From: Streptomyces puniciscabiei
GTDB lineage: Bacteria; Actinomycetota; Actinomycetes; Streptomycetales; Streptomycetaceae
Length of the DNA: 64,000 bases
Assembly: GCF_006715785.1 (NCBI RefSeq)
Contig: NZ_VFNX01000001.1
Coordinates: forward strand, 744,001 to 808,000
Direction: 5' to 3'
Shown here piece after piece: positions 961 through 36,028 of the stretch. The position numbers and the translations under genes were made by a program. How positions within the stretch are numbered: the stretch's first letter is position 1; every line of letters starts with the position of its first letter. The notes beneath the pieces were generated by a model that saw only the letters and a list, made by a program, of their open reading frames with translations, had not been told where the DNA came from and did no database searches.

Positions 961-1057
961 GTCCCCGCCTCCTTGTCCGGTGTGCTGCCTGCGGCCGGAC
1001 GGTGCCGGCCCACGCGAGAACGCTAGGTCCCGGGCGGTACCAGGCGGATCGGAGCAC

Positions 1058-1111
1058 GGGTGGAACACCGGGTGGAGCACCGGGTGGAGCACCGGGTGGA
1101 AAGAGGGTGGA
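1058..1111. repeat. 12-bp tandem repeat with GGGTGGA core
   Basis: The heptamer GGGTGGA occurs at 1058, 1070, 1082, 1094 and 1105, a 12-bp period with one 11-bp step, and again at 1129 inside the adjacent hairpin. The array lies in the leader or promoter region of the 121-960 gene, between it and the terminator of the YihY-like gene. Confidence 0.8.
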
Positions 1112-1128
1112 CGGCAGCGTCACTCACT

Positions 1129-1168
1129 GGGTGGAGACCACCGGGTGGCCACCTGGTGGTCTCCACCC
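1129..1168 (-). terminator. 40-nt near-perfect palindrome, probable terminator
   Basis: Bases 1129-1142 and 1155-1168 are perfect 14-bp inverted arms, and the 12 bases between them are also self-complementary apart from a G-T pair, so the whole 40 nt can fold. It lies 17 bases past the stop of the minus-strand YihY-like gene. There is no T-run, as is usual for terminators in high-GC actinomycetes. Confidence 0.65.
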
Positions 1169-1185
1169 ACGCCCGCGGCGACCGG

Positions 1186-2427
1186 CTACTGCCGTCCCGT
1201 GCCCGCGTCCCCGTTGGCCCCGTGCGGATGCCGTTCGTCGTTGTCGTGCGGCGGCTCGCCGTCGGGCTCGTGCGGCTCCCGGCCGTGGGTCTTGTGGGCG
1301 TGGTGGGCCTGGTGGGTTTGGTGGGTGTGCTTGGCGGGGGTGCGCAGGCGGGCGGTGACGTCCTCCGGGGGCAGGAAGCGGGACCAGCGCTCGGGGAACT
1401 CGGAGGGCATGTCGGGGTCGTCCGGGTCGGCTTCGCGGGCCGCCGCGGCCCGGGCGACGTACTCGGCGACCTGGGCCTCGCGCGCCCGTTCGTTCGCGGC
1501 GCGGGCGGCGGCCGTGGCGGCGGCGGGCCAGACCCGGTCGATGGCGGCGTTCACCGCCGCCCCGACGAGCACGGCGAAGGCGGACACACCGATCCAGAGC
1601 AGCACGGCGACGGACGCGGCGAGGGAGCCGTAGATCGTGGCGCCCTCGATGGTGTGCACGAGGTAGATCCGCAGGAGGAAGCTGCCCAGGACCCACATGG
1701 CCAGCGCGACCAGGGCGCCGGGGACGTCCTCGATCCACGGGGAGCGGACCGGCACGGACACGTGGTACAGGGTCGTCAGGAAGGCGATGGACAGGACGAT
1801 GACGACCGGCCAGTACAGGACCTGCACCACGGTCGCCGACCAGGGCACCACCCGCACCACCGCGTCGGGGCCCGCCACCATCAGCGGCAGGGCCACCGAG
1901 CCGATGAGCAGGGCCACGATGAACAGCAGGAACGACATCACCCGGGTCTTGACGATGCCCCGGACGCCGTCGAGGCCGTACATGACGGTGATGGTGTCGA
2001 TGAAGACGTTCACCGCGCGGGAGCCGGACCACAGGGCGAAGAGGAAACCGATGGAGATGATGTCGGGCCGGCCCTTCATCACGTCGTGCAGGATCGGCTC
2101 GGTGATCTCCTTCACACCCTTGTCGGACAGGACCGTCCGGGAGGCCTCGAGGATGTTGGTCTCGAGGCTGCTGATGGTGTGGGCGCCGGTCCAGGTGTCG
2201 ACGTAGGCGAGCAGCCCGATGAGGCAGAGCAGCAGCGGCGGCACGGACAGCAGCGTGAAGAACGCCGCCTCGGCCGCCAGGCCCAGGATGCGGTACTCCA
2301 TGCAGGAGTTGACGGTGTCCTTGAGCAGCAGCCAGGCGGTCTTCCGCTTGGAGACGTTCCGGTAGAGGGCTCTGGCCCGGTGGAGGCGACCGGCGGGCGG
2401 CTCGGGGGGTTCACTTGCTGGCTGCAC
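1186..2427 (-). CDS. YihY/virulence factor BrkB family membrane protein
   Basis: This is a 413-aa inner-membrane protein of the YihY (BrkB, formerly RNase BN) family. The family motif region EYRILGLAAEAAFFTLLSVPPLLLC starts near residue 45 (here described in part), followed by further membrane helices with the conserved RAVNVFIDTITVMYGL segment near 140-155. The family role is unresolved; the old RNase BN assignment was withdrawn and transport has been suggested. The C-terminal ~60 residues are cytoplasmic-like and strikingly His-rich (HTHQTHQAHHAHKTH), which may bind metal. I chose a GTG start at 2427; the frame stays open to 2508 without a family-like sequence, and the ribosome site is weak in either case. 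It is transcribed divergently from the acyl-CoA dehydrogenase gene. Confidence 0.8.
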   Translation of the reverse strand: MQPASEPPEPPAGRLHRARALYRNVSKRKTAWLLLKDTVNSCMEYRILGLAAEAAFFTLLSVPPLLLCLIGLLAYVDTWTGAHTISSLETNILEASRTVLSDKGVKEITEPILHDVMKGRPDIISIGFLFALWSGSRAVNVFIDTITVMYGLDGVRGIVKTRVMSFLLFIVALLIGSVALPLMVAGPDAVVRVVPWSATVVQVLYWPVVIVLSIAFLTTLYHVSVPVRSPWIEDVPGALVALAMWVLGSFLLRIYLVHTIEGATIYGSLAASVAVLLWIGVSAFAVLVGAAVNAAIDRVWPAAATAAARAANERAREAQVAEYVARAAAAREADPDDPDMPSEFPERWSRFLPPEDVTARLRTPAKHTHQTHQAHHAHKTHGREPHEPDGEPPHDNDERHPHGANGDAGTGRQ

Positions 2428-2558
2428 GACCCAAAGGTATCCGCAGCACCGGACCGCCCTCACCTTCCCGGGCCGGGCGAGCGCATCCGGCGCGCTCTGC
2501 GGCGGCACTGTGCCACTCTGGAGGCCATCACCGCCGCCTCCCCGGGTAGGTTCGCACC

Positions 2559-4211
2559 ATGGCAGGCACCTCCACCCACACCGTGACGAACCAGCCGCCG
2601 CCCCTGGTCGGCTACGACGTCTTCACCGCCGACCGGGCCCTCGTGGCGGCCGTCGAGCGGTACACCGGTCCGGACGTGCTCGACGAGGTGCGGTCGGAGC
2701 TGTCCGCGCTGGGCCGCGCCGCCGGCTCGGCGCAGCTGCAGGAGTGGGCGGTGCAGGCGAACGAGCACCCGCCCCGGCTGCGCACCCACGACCGCTACGG
2801 CCACCGGATCGACGAGGTCGACTTCCACCCGGCCTGGCACCGGCTGCTCGGCAAGGGTGTCGCGGCGGGCCTGACCGGCGCCTGGACCCGGCCGTCGGGG
2901 CATGTCCGCCGGGCCGCCGGCTTCCTGGTCTGGACCCAGGTCGACGCGGGCAACTGCTGCCCGCTGTCCATGACCCACGCGGCGGTGCCGGCGCTGCGGA
3001 CCGACCCCCGGCTCGCCGCCGAGTGGGAGCCGCGGCTGACGTCCACGGTCTACGACCGTCAGCTGCGGCCCGCCGGGCAGAAGCCCGGTGCGCTGGTCGG
3101 CATGGGCATGACCGAGAAGCAGGGCGGCAGCGACGTACGCGCGAACACCACGTGGGCCCGGCCGCTCGCGGAGCCGGGCACGTACGAGCTGACCGGGCAC
3201 AAGTGGTTCTGCTCGGCTCCCATGTCCGACGCCTTCCTGGTGCTGGCGCAGGCGTCCCCCTCTCCGGGAGAAGGGGGCCTCACCTGCTTCCTCGTGCCGC
3301 GGGTCCTGCCCGACGGTTCCCGCAACGTCTTCCTGGTCCAGCGGCTGAAGGACAAGCTCGGCAACCGGTCCAACGCCTCGGCCGAGGTCGAGTTCGCCGG
3401 TACCTGGGCGCGCCGGGTGGGCGAGGAGGGGCGCGGGGTGCGGACAATCATCGAGATGGTCGCGGCGACCCGGCTGGACTGCGCGCTGGGCTCGGCGGGC
3501 CTGATGCGGCAGGCGGTGGCGCAGGCGATCCACCACTGCGCCCACCGGGAGGCGTTCGGCGGGAAGCTGATCGACAAGCCGCTGATGCGCAACGTCCTCG
3601 CCGACCTCGCGCTGGAGTCGGAGGCGGCGACCGCGCTGACGCTCCGGCTGGCGGCCGCCTATGACGACGGCGGCGAACAGGAACGCGCGTTCCTGCGGCT
3701 GGCGGTGCCGGCCGCCAAGTACTGGATCACCAAGCGCTGTGCGCCCGTTGCGGTCGAGGCCGCGGAGTGCCTGGGCGGAAACGGTTACGTCGAGGAGTCG
3801 GGCCTGCCCCGGCTGGTACGGGAGTCACCGCTGAACTCGATCTGGGAGGGCGCCGGAAACGTTCAGGCGCTGGACGTGCTCCGGGCGCTGCGACGCGAGC
3901 CGGGCGCGCTCGACGCCTGCCTGACCGAGATCGGCCGGACCCATGGCACCGACCACCGCCTCGACCGCGCCGTGAAGGACCTCTTCACCGAACTCGCCGA
4001 CCTGGACGCCGTCGAGGGGCGCGCTCGGCGGCTCGTGGAGCGCCTCGCACTGGTGCTCCAGGGTTCACTCCTGGTCCGGCACGCCCCACCGGAGGTGGCA
4101 GACGCTTTCTGCGCGTCCCGCCTGGGCGGCGACCACGGGGCGGCTTTCGGCACCCTGCCAACGTCCCTGGACCTGACGTCGATTGTGGAGCGGGCGCACC
4201 CCGCCCTGTGA
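2559..4211 (+). CDS. AidB-type acyl-CoA dehydrogenase
   Basis: This encodes a 550-aa flavoprotein of the acyl-CoA dehydrogenase superfamily and matches the AidB branch in length (E. coli AidB is about 541 aa). The branch signature GMGMTEKQGGSDVRANTT lies near residues 180-198, and the C-terminal FAD-domain signature CLGGNGYVEESGLPRL lies near 405-420. AidB proteins bind FAD and double-stranded DNA and are linked to protection from alkylation; isovaleryl-CoA dehydrogenase activity is weak. No Ada-type partner is visible nearby, so the role here is inferred from family only. The ribosome-binding site is poor and the start was taken as the first ATG. The gene ends just before a 13-bp stem-loop terminator. 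Confidence 0.88.
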   Translation: MAGTSTHTVTNQPPPLVGYDVFTADRALVAAVERYTGPDVLDEVRSELSALGRAAGSAQLQEWAVQANEHPPRLRTHDRYGHRIDEVDFHPAWHRLLGKGVAAGLTGAWTRPSGHVRRAAGFLVWTQVDAGNCCPLSMTHAAVPALRTDPRLAAEWEPRLTSTVYDRQLRPAGQKPGALVGMGMTEKQGGSDVRANTTWARPLAEPGTYELTGHKWFCSAPMSDAFLVLAQASPSPGEGGLTCFLVPRVLPDGSRNVFLVQRLKDKLGNRSNASAEVEFAGTWARRVGEEGRGVRTIIEMVAATRLDCALGSAGLMRQAVAQAIHHCAHREAFGGKLIDKPLMRNVLADLALESEAATALTLRLAAAYDDGGEQERAFLRLAVPAAKYWITKRCAPVAVEAAECLGGNGYVEESGLPRLVRESPLNSIWEGAGNVQALDVLRALRREPGALDACLTEIGRTHGTDHRLDRAVKDLFTELADLDAVEGRARRLVERLALVLQGSLLVRHAPPEVADAFCASRLGGDHGAAFGTLPTSLDLTSIVERAHPAL

Positions 4212-27756: not shown

Positions 27757-28995
27757 TCAGGACACAGGGCGCGAATCCGCCCAAGCCAGCTCGAACTCCT
27801 CGCGGTACGTAGGGAAGAGTCCCGCTTCACCCACTTCATCCGACTTGACCAGCTTGCTGCCGTTGCGCAGCACCAGTACCGGCGACTCCATCCCGCGCGC
27901 CCCGCACAGATAGGACTGCACCACGGCGATGCCGTCGGCGCCGTCACCGTCCACCAGGTAGGCGGTGAAGCGGGGCGTCTCGTCGTAGACCTGGATCTCG
28001 AAGGCGCCCGGGTCGCGCAGCCGGGAGCGGACCCGGCGCATGTGCAGGATGTTCATCTCGACCGACCGGCTCAGTTCGCCCCGTTTCATCCCGAGTTCAC
28101 GCTCGCGGCGCTTGACCGAGCTGGAGGCCGGGTTGAGGAAGAGCAGCCGTACCCGGCAGCCGGTCTCGGCGAGCCGGACCAGACGGCGGCCGGAGAAGTT
28201 CTGCACGAGCAGGTTGAGGCCGATGCCGATGGCGTCGAGGCGGCGCGCGCCGCCGAAGAGGTCCTCGGCGGGGAACTGGCGCATCAGCCGCACCCGGTCG
28301 GGGTGGACGGCGACGACGTCGGCGTACCGGTCGCCGACCAGGTCCTCGACCGCGTCCACGGGCAGCCGGCGCGCGGAGGGCACGTCACCGGCCGCGCCGA
28401 GCGTCTCCAGCAGCCGGGCCGAGGCGCGTTCGGCCTGGTTCAGGACCGCCTCGGACAGCGCCCGGTTGCGGGAGACGACATTGCGGGTCACCTCCAGCTC
28501 GTCGAGGGCGAGTTCGAGGTCGCGGCGCTCGTCGAAGTACGGCTCGAAGCACGGCCAGTGCTGCACCATCAGCTCACGCAGCTGGGGCAGGGTGAGGAAG
28601 CTGAGCACGTTGTCGTCGGCCGGGTCGAGCAGGTAGCCCTTGCGGCGGCTGACCTCACGGACGGCGACGGCGCGCTGCACCCACTCCTGCCCGGCCGGAC
28701 CGGCCGCGGCGACCACCCACTCGTCCCCGTGGACGGGTTCGTAGATGGGGCGCAGCACGGCGGCCACGACCGCGCGCAGCCGCTGTTCGACGAGGTTCAG
28801 CCAGATGTATGCCCGGCCGGCCCGCTGGGCGCGGGTGCGCACCTCGCGCCAGGCGTCGGCGTCCCAGTCCAGCTCCGGCCCGATGGACCCCGCGTCCATC
28901 GGGCGGGCCAGGGACACCGCGCCGGGCGGGACGTCAGTGGAGTTCCCCTCGTGACCCTCGTCACCAGGGGGCAGCTCCAGGCCTCCCGAGCCCAC
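27757..28995 (-). CDS. SAV2148-family HEPN-domain protein
   Basis: This ~412-aa protein matches the SAV2148 family conserved in Streptomyces. The N-terminal half is helical and resembles the Swt1/RloC-type HEPN fold: PQLRELMVQHWPCFEPYF followed by ELEVTRNVVSRNRALSEAVL near residues 165-186. Catalytic HEPN ribonucleases have RNxxxH at this point; here the His is Arg (R171-N-V-V-S-R176), so RNase activity is doubtful. The C-terminal half (GCRVRLLFLNPASSS near 280, then VYDETPRFTAYLVDG) resembles the phospholipase-D-like DUF5919 fold. The start is uncertain: GTG 28995 was chosen, while Met at 28899 is an alternative. It precedes the DEDD exonuclease on the same strand. Confidence 0.8.
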   Translation of the reverse strand: MGSGGLELPPGDEGHEGNSTDVPPGAVSLARPMDAGSIGPELDWDADAWREVRTRAQRAGRAYIWLNLVEQRLRAVVAAVLRPIYEPVHGDEWVVAAAGPAGQEWVQRAVAVREVSRRKGYLLDPADDNVLSFLTLPQLRELMVQHWPCFEPYFDERRDLELALDELEVTRNVVSRNRALSEAVLNQAERASARLLETLGAAGDVPSARRLPVDAVEDLVGDRYADVVAVHPDRVRLMRQFPAEDLFGGARRLDAIGIGLNLLVQNFSGRRLVRLAETGCRVRLLFLNPASSSVKRRERELGMKRGELSRSVEMNILHMRRVRSRLRDPGAFEIQVYDETPRFTAYLVDGDGADGIAVVQSYLCGARGMESPVLVLRNGSKLVKSDEVGEAGLFPTYREEFELAWADSRPVS

Positions 28996-29111
28996 CCGCG
29001 CACCGCCTTCCGATCCCCCGGGCCTTTCCCGTCTCAACGATCAAGGAAGGGTACTCCGCGAGGGGTGGGCGGTGCAGCCGGATGGACAGGTCGGTTTCTC
29101 AACTGTTTTCC

Positions 29112-30434
29112 TCAACTACGCGGCTCCCAGTGGCCGTTCTGCCATGCCAGGTCACGCGGAGTGAGCGGATTCATAGCGGTCACGTCCCGGGGCACGAGGG
29201 CGAAGCCCTGCCAGTGCACCGGCATCGGCTGCTGGTCCTCGTCCCGGGCGATGTGGTGGAAGCCGACGTTCATCCAGATCACCGGGTGGGTCAGGGTCTG
29301 CCCCCCGGCCCATCGGTCGACGGATGCGGGGTGCCCGCGGTCGCACTTCGGGTTGTCGCTGGCGAAGAGTTCACACGGGTTGTACTCGGTGACATAGAGG
29401 TCGTGCTCGGTGAAGGCGCGGCCGGGGTACTTGGTGGAGGGGCCGGGGACCACCTCGTACGAACGTGCGTGTCCGTCCTTGTTCCTGCCGGTCGCGCTGA
29501 CCACCCGCCACCAGCGGTAGTCCTTCAGGTCACCCGCCATCTCCTCGGTGACCTGGGTGCGGGTGGTCCTCGTGGTCGGGCCCTGCCGCCGGCCGGTGCG
29601 CGGGCTGACGGCCGAGTCGTACTGTTCGACCTTCGTCCTCGAGGAGCCGTCGAGACCGAAGTCCAGCCGCCAGAAGACGTTGTGGCTGTGGCTGGTGGCA
29701 TAGGCCTTCGCGCCCTTGCCGATGGGCCAGCCGCGACCGTCACCGGCGTCGTAGTCCTCCCAGGAGAGGCTGCCGGTCGCGCCGACGTTCATGGCGATCA
29801 TGCCGTCGTCCTGGAAGCGCCACTCGGTGATGTACTCGTACCAGCCGACCTGGTTGACGGTGTAGACGAGGAAGTCCTTGCCCTGGGCCTGGTAGAGCTT
29901 GCCCGTGCCGAGGTCGTCGTGCATGCGGTAGGCATGGACGCGGGCGCGGGTGGTCGTGCACAGGCCGCCCACGTCCGGGTGCCGTGGGTCCGCGGCGTCC
30001 GGCACCTTGACGGTCCTGATGGTGCCGCCGGGGCATTCGGCGGGTGAGAGGTTCATCAGCGACCGGGCGAAGTCCTGGCCCGTCAGGTCGCTGTACTCGT
30101 TCTTCCCGTCGTCGTAGGGGACGTGGATCTGGGCGAGTCTGGCGCTGTTGAGGACCTTGATCGGCTTCGGTTCGTCCTTGGGCTGGTAGCTGATGTCCTC
30201 CAGGACGAGACCGGCCTTGCTGTCGTAGTGCCAGCACATGCGCCAGGTCGTGCCGGTGGAGAGCTTCTGTTCGATGCGGTGGGCGGCGCTGCAGTCGGCG
30301 GCGGGCGCGGCGGCGGCCGTTCGCGGGCGGGCGGCGGCCGGTCCTGCGGCGGTCGTCGCGCCGGCGGCCAGCGCGGCCACGGTCAGGCCGGCGGCCGCCG
30401 CCCTGCGGGCGCGGCGGATTCCGTACTCGGGCAT
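29112..30434 (-). CDS. Secreted copper amine oxidase, catalytic-domain-only form
   Basis: This 440-aa exported protein corresponds to the catalytic domain of copper amine oxidases, which oxidise primary amines to aldehydes with release of H2O2 and NH3. After a signal peptide (about 35 residues) the family landmarks appear in order: the VPYDD...YSD region, the cofactor region VGWYEYITEWRF (Tyr precursor of TPQ, but with Trp where the usual NYxY motif has Asn), the HSHN copper pair, and the third His in FHHIARDED followed by MPVHWQGFALVPRDV. Full-length enzymes are 640 aa or more; the N-terminal domains are missing here and appear to be supplied by the gene just upstream. Tat or Sec export cannot be decided. 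Confidence 0.78.
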   Translation of the reverse strand: MPEYGIRRARRAAAAGLTVAALAAGATTAAGPAAARPRTAAAAPAADCSAAHRIEQKLSTGTTWRMCWHYDSKAGLVLEDISYQPKDEPKPIKVLNSARLAQIHVPYDDGKNEYSDLTGQDFARSLMNLSPAECPGGTIRTVKVPDAADPRHPDVGGLCTTTRARVHAYRMHDDLGTGKLYQAQGKDFLVYTVNQVGWYEYITEWRFQDDGMIAMNVGATGSLSWEDYDAGDGRGWPIGKGAKAYATSHSHNVFWRLDFGLDGSSRTKVEQYDSAVSPRTGRRQGPTTRTTRTQVTEEMAGDLKDYRWWRVVSATGRNKDGHARSYEVVPGPSTKYPGRAFTEHDLYVTEYNPCELFASDNPKCDRGHPASVDRWAGGQTLTHPVIWMNVGFHHIARDEDQQPMPVHWQGFALVPRDVTAMNPLTPRDLAWQNGHWEPRS

Positions 30435-30482
30435 GACGAAATGGCTCCCTTGGCGGAGGCGAAGATCTGAGGAAACGTTTGT

Positions 30483-31283
30483 TCAGCGGCGGTCGAGAGC
30501 GGCGGCCCTGCGGGCACTCAGGTCGATCACCAGGGACCTGGTGTCGATCCAGGGGCCGTTCCTGACCTTGGTGAACAGCCGGACGCACCGGTGCACGCTG
30601 CACTGGTCGAGGACCGCCGGCTGGGCGCCCGGAGCGGCCCGGTAGACGCCGCCGCTCAGCAGCAGCTGGTCCGGGGAGGTGAGCTCCTTGCCGGTGGCGT
30701 CCTTGTAGTCCGCCCTCAGGCCCGCGCCGAGCGGGGAGGCGATCAGGAGCCGGGCGGCCGCGGCGTTCTCGTCCCCGCTCGGCGGCGGCTGGACGCCGCG
30801 CTGGGTACCGGTCCGCTCCACCTTGCCCGTGTCCAGGTCGACGGTCGTGGTGACGAGGGTGTCGTTCCGGTAGTCGTAGAAGGTGAGGTCGGCCCGGCGC
30901 GGCGCGGCCGGGTCGTCCGCCCCGCCGGGCTCGGGTTCGGCGAGGTCGACGCTCAGGCGCTGCGGTCCGCGACCGCCGTCGACGTTCTCGCCCGTGGTCA
31001 GCGGCCGCCGGTTCAGGGCGATCTGCTCGGCCCGCCGTATCTCGTCGTCGGTGAGCGGATCCCGGCCGATGCCCTTGCCGCGCTCGTCGGGCGCGTGTTC
31101 GACGACACCGGGCCGGACCGCGTCCATGCCCTGCCCGGCCCGCGTACCGCCGCTCGCGCCGGCCGAGGTGTCCGCCCCGGCCGTGCCCGGCAGCGTGATC
31201 GCCGCCATCGCGGCGGTCCCCACCGCCGCGACGGCCGCCGCGGCCACTAACTTCCCCAGATGGCGGTGCACAGTCTCACGCAC
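30483..31283 (-). CDS. Secreted protein resembling the N-terminal domains of copper amine oxidase
   Basis: This 266-aa exported protein lies 48 bases upstream of the amine oxidase gene on the same strand. After the signal peptide (to about residue 37) it contains PLTDDEIRRAEQIAL near 70-84 and ADLTFYDYRNDTLVTTTVDLDTGKVERT (described in part) near 128-155, the pattern of the small N2/N3 domains that precede the catalytic domain in amine oxidases. It also has a Cys pair in CSVHRC near the C-terminus. Its order and position suggest that the two genes are halves of one enzyme, made separately. The GTG at 31283 has an AGGGGGAAAT ribosome site; upstream in-frame sequence is not signal-like. I know it otherwise only as a Tat-signal-type hypothetical protein. 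Confidence 0.65.
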   Translation of the reverse strand: MRETVHRHLGKLVAAAAVAAVGTAAMAAITLPGTAGADTSAGASGGTRAGQGMDAVRPGVVEHAPDERGKGIGRDPLTDDEIRRAEQIALNRRPLTTGENVDGGRGPQRLSVDLAEPEPGGADDPAAPRRADLTFYDYRNDTLVTTTVDLDTGKVERTGTQRGVQPPPSGDENAAAARLLIASPLGAGLRADYKDATGKELTSPDQLLLSGGVYRAAPGAQPAVLDQCSVHRCVRLFTKVRNGPWIDTRSLVIDLSARRAAALDRR

Positions 31284-31477
31284 ATTTCCCCCTGCTCCCC
31301 ATGGTTCACGGGAGTACGTGTTGCCCCACTGGTTCGGCACACGGCTGGTACCAGAGGCGCCGTGTGCGCCGGTCGGTGGGTAAGAGGGACGCAAGACACA
31401 TGAGGTTCCCTCAATTCGGGGCGACTCGGGGCCCAACGCGGCCCCGGGGCGGCGGCACACCTGGGAGAGTCGTAGCC

Positions 31478-33589
<2,112 letters not shown>

Positions 33590-33652
33590 CCGGACGTGGT
33601 CCGTTCAGGGGTCGATGACAGGAAAGACGGCGGGCTGGGTACGTAGGTTTCC

Positions 33653-36028
33653 ATGACTTCTGCGCGCCCCGGACCGGAAGTGCCCACGGCCACCTACCGG
33701 CTGCAGCTCCAGCCCGCTTTCCCGTTCGCCGCCGCCGAGGCGGCCGTACCGTATCTGGCGTCGCTCGGCGTCTCGCACCTGCACCTGTCCCCGGTCCTCG
33801 AGGCCGTGCCCGGCTCCCCGCACGGCTACGACGTGGTGGACCACGCGCGCGTACGCGAGGAACTGGGCGGTGAGGAGGGCCTGCGGTCGCTGGCGCGGAC
33901 AGCGCGGGAGCACGGTCTGGGCCTGGTGGCGGACCTCGTGCCGAACCACATGGCCATGGCGCCCCGGCACAACCACGCCCTGTGGGAGGTGCTGCGCGAG
34001 GGTCCCGGCTCGCCGTACGCGCGCTGGTTCGACATCGACTGGGAGGCACAGGGCGGGCGGGTGCTGCTGCCCGTACTGGGCGGTCCGGTCGGCTCGCAGC
34101 TGGAGCACCTCGTGGTCGACGGCGACGTGCTGCGCTACCACGAGCACGCCTTCCCGCTCCGCGCGGGCACCCAGGACCTGCCGCTGCCTCAGCTGCTGGA
34201 CGCCCAGTGGTACCGCCCGGTGTGGTGGCGGCTGGCCCGCACCGAGCTGAACTACCGGCGGTTCTTCAGCATCTCGGAGCTGATCGGGCTGCGCGTGGAG
34301 GATCCGGAGGTGTTCGACGCCACCCACGCCAAGATCCTCCAGCTGCTGCGCGAGGGAGTGATCGACGGGCTGCGCGTGGACCACCCCGACGGGCTCGCCG
34401 ATCCCGACGCCTACCTGGCGCGGCTGCACGAGGCGACCGGCGGGTGCTGGACGGTGGTGGAGAAGATCCTCGCCGACGGCGAGCTGCTGCCGGCGTCCTG
34501 GCCCGTCGCCGGCACCACCGGCTACGACGCCCTGCGCCAGGTCGACGGCCTGTTCACCGACCAGACCGGGGCGTACGAACTGCTGGGCCGCTACCGGGCG
34601 TTCGCGGCACCGCAGACGGACCGGGGCGGCAACTGGGACGCGACGGTGCGGCGGGCCGCCTACAAGGTGCTCACGCACGAGCTGGCCGCCGAGACCGACC
34701 GGCTCACCCGGGTGGCCACCCGGGTGTGCGCCGCCTCGCCGGACCTGGACCTGCGCGACCGGGCGCCCTGGGCGCTGCGCACGGCCGTGGAGGAGCTGCT
34801 GGTGCGGCTGCGGGTGTACCGGCCGTACGCCTCCGGTGACGCGGCCGCCGTCGTCACCGAGGAGGCCGCCGAGGAGGCCCGGCTCGCCTTCGTGGTGCCC
34901 GAGGAGGCGGAGGCCGTCGGCATCGTGCGGCGGCTGCTGGTCGAGCCGCCCGGTGAGCCGTCGGCACCGGACCACGCCGACCGGGTGGAGTTCCGCACGC
35001 GGTTCGCGCAGACCGCCTCGGCGCTGCGCGCCAAGTCGGTGGAGGACACCGCGTTCTACCGCTATGTGCCGCTGCTGTCGCTGACCGAGGTGGGCGGCGA
35101 TCCCGGCCGGCCGGGCGTGTCGCCGGAGGACTTCCACGCGTACTGTGCGCGCGTGCAGCGCGACTGGCCGGTCACCGGCACGGTGGTCTCCACGCACGAC
35201 ACCAAGCGCAGCGCCGACGTGCGGGCCGCGCTGGCCGTGCTCACCGAGTGCCCGGACCGGTGGGCGGAGTTGCTGGCGGAGGTGAACCGGCCGGAGGAGG
35301 GCGTGGGCGTGCCGGACGGGCAGCTGGCCTGGGCGGCCTGGCAGACGGTGTTCGGGCTGGGTCCGGCCGAGGCGGAGCGGGTGCAGCGGGCACTGCTGAA
35401 GCATGTGCGCGAGGCGGGCATGTACACCAGCTGGACGGAGCAGGAGCCGCCGTACGAGGAGGCAGTGGCCGCGTTCGTCGCCGCGGGGCCGTGCGGGCCG
35501 CCCGGTGAGCGCGTGGCCGCCTTCCGCAAGGCGCTGGAGCCGCACGTGCGGGCCAATGTGCTCGGCACCGCCCTGGTCCATCTGACGATGCCCGGGGTGC
35601 CGGACGTGTACCAGGGCACGGAGGGCGAGTGCCGGTCGCTGGTGGATCCGGACAACCGGCGTCCGGTGCCGTTGCCGCCCGAGGTGCCCGGCGAGAAGGA
35701 CGCGCTGACGGCGGCGGCGCTGCGGCTGCGCGCCCGCCGTCCCGGCGCCTTCGGCCCGGCCGCGTCGTACGAACCGCTGACCGCCGAGGGTCCGGCGGCC
35801 GGGCACTGTGTGGCGTTCGCGCGCTCCGGTGAGGTGGTCACGGCGGTGACCCGGCTGTCGCTGCGGCTCGCGGAGGCGGGCGGCTGGCAGGAGACCCGGC
35901 TGACGCTGCCCCCCGGACAGTGGACGGACGCGCTCACCGGCGGGCGGGAGTTCACGGGCCACGCGCGCGTGGCGGACCTCTTCCAACGGCTACCGGTCGC
36001 GCTGCTGGAACGGACCGCGCAGGACTGA
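33653..36028 (+). CDS. treY: Malto-oligosyltrehalose synthase
   Basis: This 791-aa GH13 enzyme converts the reducing end of a maltodextrin into a terminal trehalose unit. It starts with the family block PTATYRLQLQPAFPFAAAEAAVPYL and continues with LVADLVPNHMAM near residue 93, GLRVDHPDGLADP near 240 (nucleophile Asp) and the C-terminal MPGVPDVYQGTE near 647-658. It works with TreZ, encoded here 5.5 kb away rather than adjacent. The last ~40 codons are duplicated directly downstream (36147-36275), part of a tandem duplication that also copies the end of the convergent lysR gene; the treY frame itself is intact. Confidence 0.95.
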   Translation: MTSARPGPEVPTATYRLQLQPAFPFAAAEAAVPYLASLGVSHLHLSPVLEAVPGSPHGYDVVDHARVREELGGEEGLRSLARTAREHGLGLVADLVPNHMAMAPRHNHALWEVLREGPGSPYARWFDIDWEAQGGRVLLPVLGGPVGSQLEHLVVDGDVLRYHEHAFPLRAGTQDLPLPQLLDAQWYRPVWWRLARTELNYRRFFSISELIGLRVEDPEVFDATHAKILQLLREGVIDGLRVDHPDGLADPDAYLARLHEATGGCWTVVEKILADGELLPASWPVAGTTGYDALRQVDGLFTDQTGAYELLGRYRAFAAPQTDRGGNWDATVRRAAYKVLTHELAAETDRLTRVATRVCAASPDLDLRDRAPWALRTAVEELLVRLRVYRPYASGDAAAVVTEEAAEEARLAFVVPEEAEAVGIVRRLLVEPPGEPSAPDHADRVEFRTRFAQTASALRAKSVEDTAFYRYVPLLSLTEVGGDPGRPGVSPEDFHAYCARVQRDWPVTGTVVSTHDTKRSADVRAALAVLTECPDRWAELLAEVNRPEEGVGVPDGQLAWAAWQTVFGLGPAEAERVQRALLKHVREAGMYTSWTEQEPPYEEAVAAFVAAGPCGPPGERVAAFRKALEPHVRANVLGTALVHLTMPGVPDVYQGTEGECRSLVDPDNRRPVPLPPEVPGEKDALTAAALRLRARRPGAFGPAASYEPLTAEGPAAGHCVAFARSGEVVTAVTRLSLRLAEAGGWQETRLTLPPGQWTDALTGGREFTGHARVADLFQRLPVALLERTAQD

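Follow-up and report, generated by a model that had tools for sequence, protein, structure and literature searches.

A probable two-subunit copper amine oxidase encoded by adjacent genes in Streptomyces and related actinomycetes

Classical copper amine oxidases (CAOs) are homodimers with subunits of about 70–80 kDa. All CAOs that had been structurally characterised by 2012 were homodimers of one chain, as stated in a section of a review of that year (PMC3382800), and the same section gives the active-site consensus as T-x-x-N-Y-D/E and calls the Asn strictly conserved. Here we analyse a gene pair in a 64,000-nucleotide stretch of Streptomyces puniciscabiei DNA (contig NZ_VFNX01000001.1, positions 744,001 to 808,000; "the window" below), which probably encodes a single extracellular copper/quinone amine oxidase whose two parts are exported as separate polypeptides. 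We regard this arrangement as a new and divergent branch of the CAO superfamily, one with two subunits. The split family shares with Arthrobacter globiformis AGAO, E. coli ECAO and Hansenula polymorpha HPAO the D4 fold, the N2 and N3 folds, the catalytic residues and the C134/C159 pair; unlike these classical enzymes, it has N2-N3 and D4 on two polypeptides, Trp or Tyr in place of the Asn before the precursor Tyr of the topaquinone (TPQ) cofactor, and the extra cysteines Cys48/Cys67 and, probably, Cys228/Cys233. Among the matches listed in the open PMC literature, which leaves subscription papers mostly uncovered and limits the claim, no account of a CAO encoded by two genes or carrying the Trp motif appears.

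The two chains and their domains

Both genes lie on the minus strand. The first encodes the 266-aa small subunit (30483..31283); its longest mechanical open reading frame (ORF) reaches 31460, but its likely start is the GTG at 31283, the point from which its relatives align. The second encodes the 440-aa large, catalytic subunit from an ATG (29112..30434), and the 48-base gap between them (30435..30482) contains, read by eye, a ribosome-binding-like AGGGAG motif before that ATG. In both chains, the most hydrophobic 15-residue stretch covers residues 12–26 and follows a charged N-terminus. These N-termini, judged by hydropathy, are consistent with export; signal-peptide-like segments cover residues 1–37 of the small subunit (31173..31283) and 1–36 of the large (30327..30434), with ends set by eye and putative cleavage sites. 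The ORF coordinates agree with a sequence-only reading of this DNA, which had described two adjacent secreted proteins 48 bases apart, and the observation goes beyond what chance would give.

That reading had also placed the copper/TPQ domain in the 440-aa protein, and this is confirmed by its match to PF01179 (profile positions 19–405 of 407, 1e-39), which assigns residues 60–423 (29166..30257) to the D4 catalytic domain. In structural alignments, the large chain has 20–23% identity to AGAO and ECAO entries.

The small chain has no Pfam match, and its only NCBIfam match is a weak one to the primary-amine oxidase model PRK11504 (model positions 17–119, E 0.0049). Searched against Protein Data Bank sequences, it finds no CAO: the single sequence and the profile each return one irrelevant match (E 0.91 and E 1, respectively). 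A profile of small chains, in contrast, matches profiles of single-chain actinobacterial CAOs with an E of 2.8e-10, whereas five column shuffles gave a probability of at most 0.6%. The N2-like part of this profile matches the N-termini of three single-chain CAOs (L100, L101 and L119).

The AlphaFold2 model of the small chain agrees with the N2 and N3 folds of CAOs, which make up 42 of the first 43 entries in the structural ranking (comparison made with VIA). After the export-like N-terminus and a low-confidence linker (to about residue 70), the model has an N2-like domain of helices, four strands and a helix (about residues 71–183, 30735..31073); profiles, AlphaFold2 and predicted fold place an N3-like domain at about residues 184–262 (30498..30734). 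The homology of the small chain rests on the PRK11504 match, the single-chain actinobacterial profiles and the fold, and the earlier assignment of N-terminal small domains to this protein is borne out. Each chain is homologous to the matching part of single-chain CAOs, with the break at the N3/D4 boundary. N2 and N3 are present, yet they are carried by a separate chain encoded just upstream of D4.

Conservation of the split arrangement

We inspected 148 loci for both genes, namely the window genome and 49 other loci of its genus, 18 loci from other families and 80 named records, some of which are the same assemblies as those of the genus loci. The small gene lies directly before the large one on the same strand in 146, and none of these 146 pairs is fused; the two loci without a small gene are L034, which has a large ORF truncated at its N-terminus, and L050, which is a fragment. 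The split arrangement is not peculiar to the window, and its interpretation as a CAO divided into two polypeptides is supported. A candidate start of the large gene overlaps the stop of the small gene by 4 bases in 15 of the 18 non-Streptomyces loci, which suggests coupled translation.

Could the pair be an ordinary single-chain CAO interrupted by a frameshift or a sequencing artefact? A similar case was seen once. In genome G196 (L265, about 1021–3477), a classical CAO occupies two overlapping frames, perhaps through a frameshift, that meet near the N3/D4 boundary, the same boundary at which the split family is broken. Each chain of the window, on the other hand, has its own start and export-like N-terminus with 48 bases in between, and 146 of 148 loci, from several families, show the same layout; we give this explanation hardly any credence.

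Within the genus, 72 of 150 genomes have some match to the large protein, and in 61 the match is near full length and exceeds 300 bits, among them G114, whose large gene has an internal stop; the remaining matches are single-chain CAOs, fragments and very short matches. The best 80 of 531 named relatives comprise 79 from Streptomyces and one from Actinobacteria bacterium OK074. In the class, the small-protein profile matches 41 of 394 genomes, in 12 of 137 genera. Two of the 41 (G295 and G439) have weak matches only and proved to hold single-chain CAOs, one of them being the sole match of its genus. These two, the 18 genomes with inspected loci, and G247, G369, G420 and G510, which are outside the inspected set, make up the 24 matching genomes outside the genus; in G247, G369 and G420, a split-type large gene lies at coordinates adjoining the small-profile match.

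The class-wide survey of the large chain used the PF01179 model, which matches 90 of 296 genomes in two score groups. Complete classical members score 470–561 bits, whereas split-type proteins score only 103–151 bits, and one fragment falls between the groups with 183 bits. Split-type proteins occur in 30 of the 296 genomes, 29 of which also match the small profile. The exception is G324, whose orphan large chain (L264, outside the set of 148) has a lipobox-like start and the cofactor-site motif WYEY, with no recognisable small subunit within the 6-kb locus.

A phylum-wide scan of 396 genomes with the small-chain profile gave 16 matching genomes and no split pair from outside the class: six matches are strong, all of the window genus, and the weak ones that were checked are single-chain CAOs, single-chain CAO-like proteins or apparently unrelated. 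Plasmid records contain no match to the small chain. The large chain matches 70 of them, all below 60% identity (24.5–27% in the 20 listed), and the annotated ones are mostly primary-amine oxidases.

The small protein might instead be a transient chaperone or regulator that aids folding, copper binding or maturation of D4 and then leaves. Its gene is encoded first and is nearly always present (146 of 148 loci), its separateness from D4 would permit release, and one orphan large subunit exists (L264). We nevertheless consider such a role very unlikely: the domains to which the small chain is homologous are retained by the single-chain enzyme when mature, and the sequences of both chains have diverged in step, although linkage alone would produce the same result.

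The alignments behind these comparisons were built from a subset of the window and the 49 genus loci (A1, 23 rows; A2, 21 rows) and extended by the 18 non-genus loci (A4, 41 rows; A3, 39 rows); L049, with a stop reported inside the large gene, and the fragment L050 were omitted. Cys228 and Cys233 are invariant in 39 of 39 small chains. In the large chains, Cys48 is present in 41 and Cys67 in all of 42 split-type rows, and neither position is Cys in 54 single-chain rows. These residues could provide a covalent tie between the chains across the break. The orphan L264, however, retains both Cys48 and Cys67 without a recognised partner, and we therefore lean towards intrachain disulfides. The D4 pair C134 and C159 is invariant in the split-type and classical groups.

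The cofactor site and its single-chain relatives

We compared 98 D4 domains, of which 42 are split-type, 54 single-chain (including L265, entered from its D4 frame only) and two single-chain but with Trp before the precursor Tyr (Trp-type). Seven residues are invariant in all 98. Tyr199, within the W198-Y199-E200-Y201 motif (29832..29843), aligns with the TPQ-precursor Tyr, and Tyr201 of this motif is likewise invariant. Asp116 (30087..30089) aligns with the catalytic base, which we take to be Asp298 in AGAO, and Tyr107 (30114..30116) aligns with Tyr284 of AGAO, which forms a hydrogen bond to TPQ. His249 and His251 (H-x-H, 29682..29690) and His394 (29253..29255) are the putative copper ligands by alignment, and all three positions are kept in 42 of 42 split-type and 54 of 54 single-chain rows. 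Every copper, base and Tyr position examined is retained, as are the pairing of the two genes and their order.

The neighbours of the precursor Tyr differ between the groups. The window protein reads VGWYEYITEW at this site, in agreement with the WYEY that had been pointed out as unusual. The preceding residue is Trp in 40 and Tyr in two of the 42 split-type rows, versus Asn in 53 and Val in one of the 54 single-chain rows, and it is Trp in both aligned Trp-type single chains. The following residue is Glu (30), Thr (6), Asp (3), Tyr (2) or His (1) in split-type rows, and Asp (33) or Glu (21) in single-chain rows. The consensus is thus departed from in all 42 split-type rows, where the Asn is replaced, and its Thr position is Gln195 in the window protein. 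Across the 148 loci, the motif reads WYEY in 135 (L043 and L099 among them), WYTY in six, WYDY in three, YYYY in two and WYHY in one, with one fragment from which no motif was read.

In the sections of an AGAO study that we cite (PMC9491219), where the catalytic base Asp is also named, the Asn before the cofactor Tyr controls the orientation of TPQ; in the N381A mutant, kcat is 160-fold lower, TPQ formation is 180-fold lower and the ring can flip. HPAO-1 N404A contains 5–10% TPQ, according to a passage in PMC3382800. Since Asn mutants of both enzymes are damaged, the Trp-type family departs from classical CAOs at a sensitive position, with the other catalytic residues kept. With Trp (rarely Tyr) in place of the Asn that keeps TPQ in a productive orientation in AGAO, the family probably also differs in how formation of the cofactor and turnover are controlled.

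The same observations fit a CAO-fold pseudo-oxidase, in which a bulky Trp blocks the quinone and the protein has another role, such as binding copper outside the cell or copper redox chemistry that involves no quinone. The damage caused by Asn loss in AGAO and HPAO-1 and the variation of the residue after the precursor Tyr (to Thr, His and Tyr in split-type proteins, and to Arg in Trp-type single chains) both weigh against a quinone enzyme. Motif loss has a parallel in plant clade I CuAOs, which are reported to be likewise without the T/S-x-x-N-Y-D motif (PMC12058724); the CAO tree of that paper covers plants and animals, and Streptomyces, "actinobacter-" and "actinomycet-" do not appear in its text. 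However, the copper His residues, the base Asp, the precursor Tyr and two further Tyr residues are invariant in the 42 split-type proteins and the two Trp-type single chains, and there would be little reason for a dead enzyme to keep the proton-abstracting Asp and the precursor Tyr. We regard a pseudo-oxidase as unlikely and favour a working oxidase.

Trp-type single chains of about 540 aa were found in three genomes from two other actinobacterial families (L267 and L268 in one genome, L278, and L279, which is cut by a contig end). They are rare, with one genome in 39 in the class of L267 and L268. All four carry the motif G-W-Y-R-Y, are weakly similar to each of the two subunits, are highly divergent and, read by eye, have no visible export signal; C134 and C159 are missing in L267 and L268. 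They share with the split pair the Trp before Tyr, and differ from it in being one chain. When used as a query, the L268 protein matches the two genes of the window genome separately (E 3.6e-5 and 9.5e-4).

The tree of the 98 D4 domains has well-supported branches that set apart each of three groups, namely split-type, Trp-type single-chain and classical (SH-aLRT 97, 99 and 99, respectively). The Trp-type single chains fall beside the split ones under midpoint rooting, in a tree made by a quick method, with long branches and a root chosen for drawing only. On the simplest reading, the Trp change predates the gene fission in the actinomycete line, as suggested by the single-chain Trp-type relatives in two other actinobacterial families; the reverse order, with re-fusion of split genes, is possible. 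Two further single-chain, apparently secreted (by eye) CAO-like frames, L280 and L281 (genomes G770 and G760; 533 and 549 aa), are very divergent and show G-E-Y-V at the presumed cofactor site, with Glu before Tyr and H-x-H kept, which is another departure from Asn-Tyr.

Neighbouring genes and the proposed enzyme

In nine of the 18 non-Streptomyces loci, in four families (L082, L083, L084, L086, L094–L097 and L099), the gene directly downstream of the large one, with the same orientation, is a DUF305 (PF03713) gene; the contig ends at L085, and the other eight are without one. All nine were confirmed over the Pfam cut-off, and HH motifs were read in three. These 18 genomes carry 0–7 DUF305 matches each. 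No DUF305 gene lies beside the pair in the Streptomyces loci scanned, and the window genome has one match, elsewhere from the pair. The same domain is found in CopM of Synechocystis, which is described, in the part of the report that we cite (PMC4335983), as a copper-binding DUF305 protein acting in copper resistance, the family having a conserved HH motif. The DUF305 protein is perhaps a dedicated copper donor to the split CAO, although delivery to an amine oxidase is our own suggestion. Such a neighbour would equally suit copper handling by a pseudo-oxidase.

Outside Streptomyces, several large chains, from several actinobacterial families, are extended at the C-terminus. Ig-like repeats occur in L093 (Pfam Big_3_5) and, by eye, in L098 and L099, and an LAxTG-like motif with a hydrophobic tail in L094 and L095, L096 being similar. 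Such C-termini would fit proteins held at the surface.

Within the window, the pair is directly followed by a gene for a HEPN_SAV2148 and DUF5919 protein (27757-29037, minus strand), and a GlgX-type debranching enzyme identified by family search is divergent from it (31301-36028, plus strand); the gene after glgX is presumably treY. HEPN domains are often nucleases. Among the best 80 named records, the HEPN_SAV2148/DUF5919 gene comes next on the same strand in 76 and glgX is divergent upstream in 79. Ten wide non-genus contexts contain no HEPN gene and only weak glgX-type matches in two (L124 and L128), and Streptomyces contexts with divergent copies of the pair (L132 and L133) have neither. 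Since these genes are mostly absent from such contexts, the pattern looks like genus-level synteny, and we rejected both as functional parts of the system.

We propose that the small subunit corresponds to N2 and N3, detached from the D4 that forms the large subunit, and that both chains would be exported separately and assemble outside the membrane into an N2N3+D4 unit. Two such units would probably dimerise through their D4 domains, so that the enzyme contains each chain twice. Copper would be loaded outside the membrane, where the neighbouring DUF305 protein perhaps supplies it in several families, and Tyr199 would then be self-oxidised to a topaquinone-like cofactor, with which the enzyme may convert an extracellular primary amine to aldehyde, NH3 and H2O2.

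A more demanding version, which we think quite unlikely, is an obligate two-chain oxidase. D4 would be exported inert and become copper-loaded and quinone-bearing only after docking of the small chain (in several families with a DUF305 donor as well), and its conserved Trp-Tyr pair would give a cofactor or cofactor conformation foreign to classical CAOs, such as a TPQ packed against Trp and lacking the control that Asn exerts on the ring flip, or a quinone in which Trp and Tyr are cross-linked.

A natural family with N2N3 separated and Asn replaced by Trp offers a direct way to ask how N2N3 contribute to D4, and whether an enzyme lacking the Asn can still make and use TPQ. If our proposal is true, the pair would represent an unrecognised exported oxidase of Streptomyces and its relatives, and in some families a candidate copper protein dedicated to this oxidase would accompany it.
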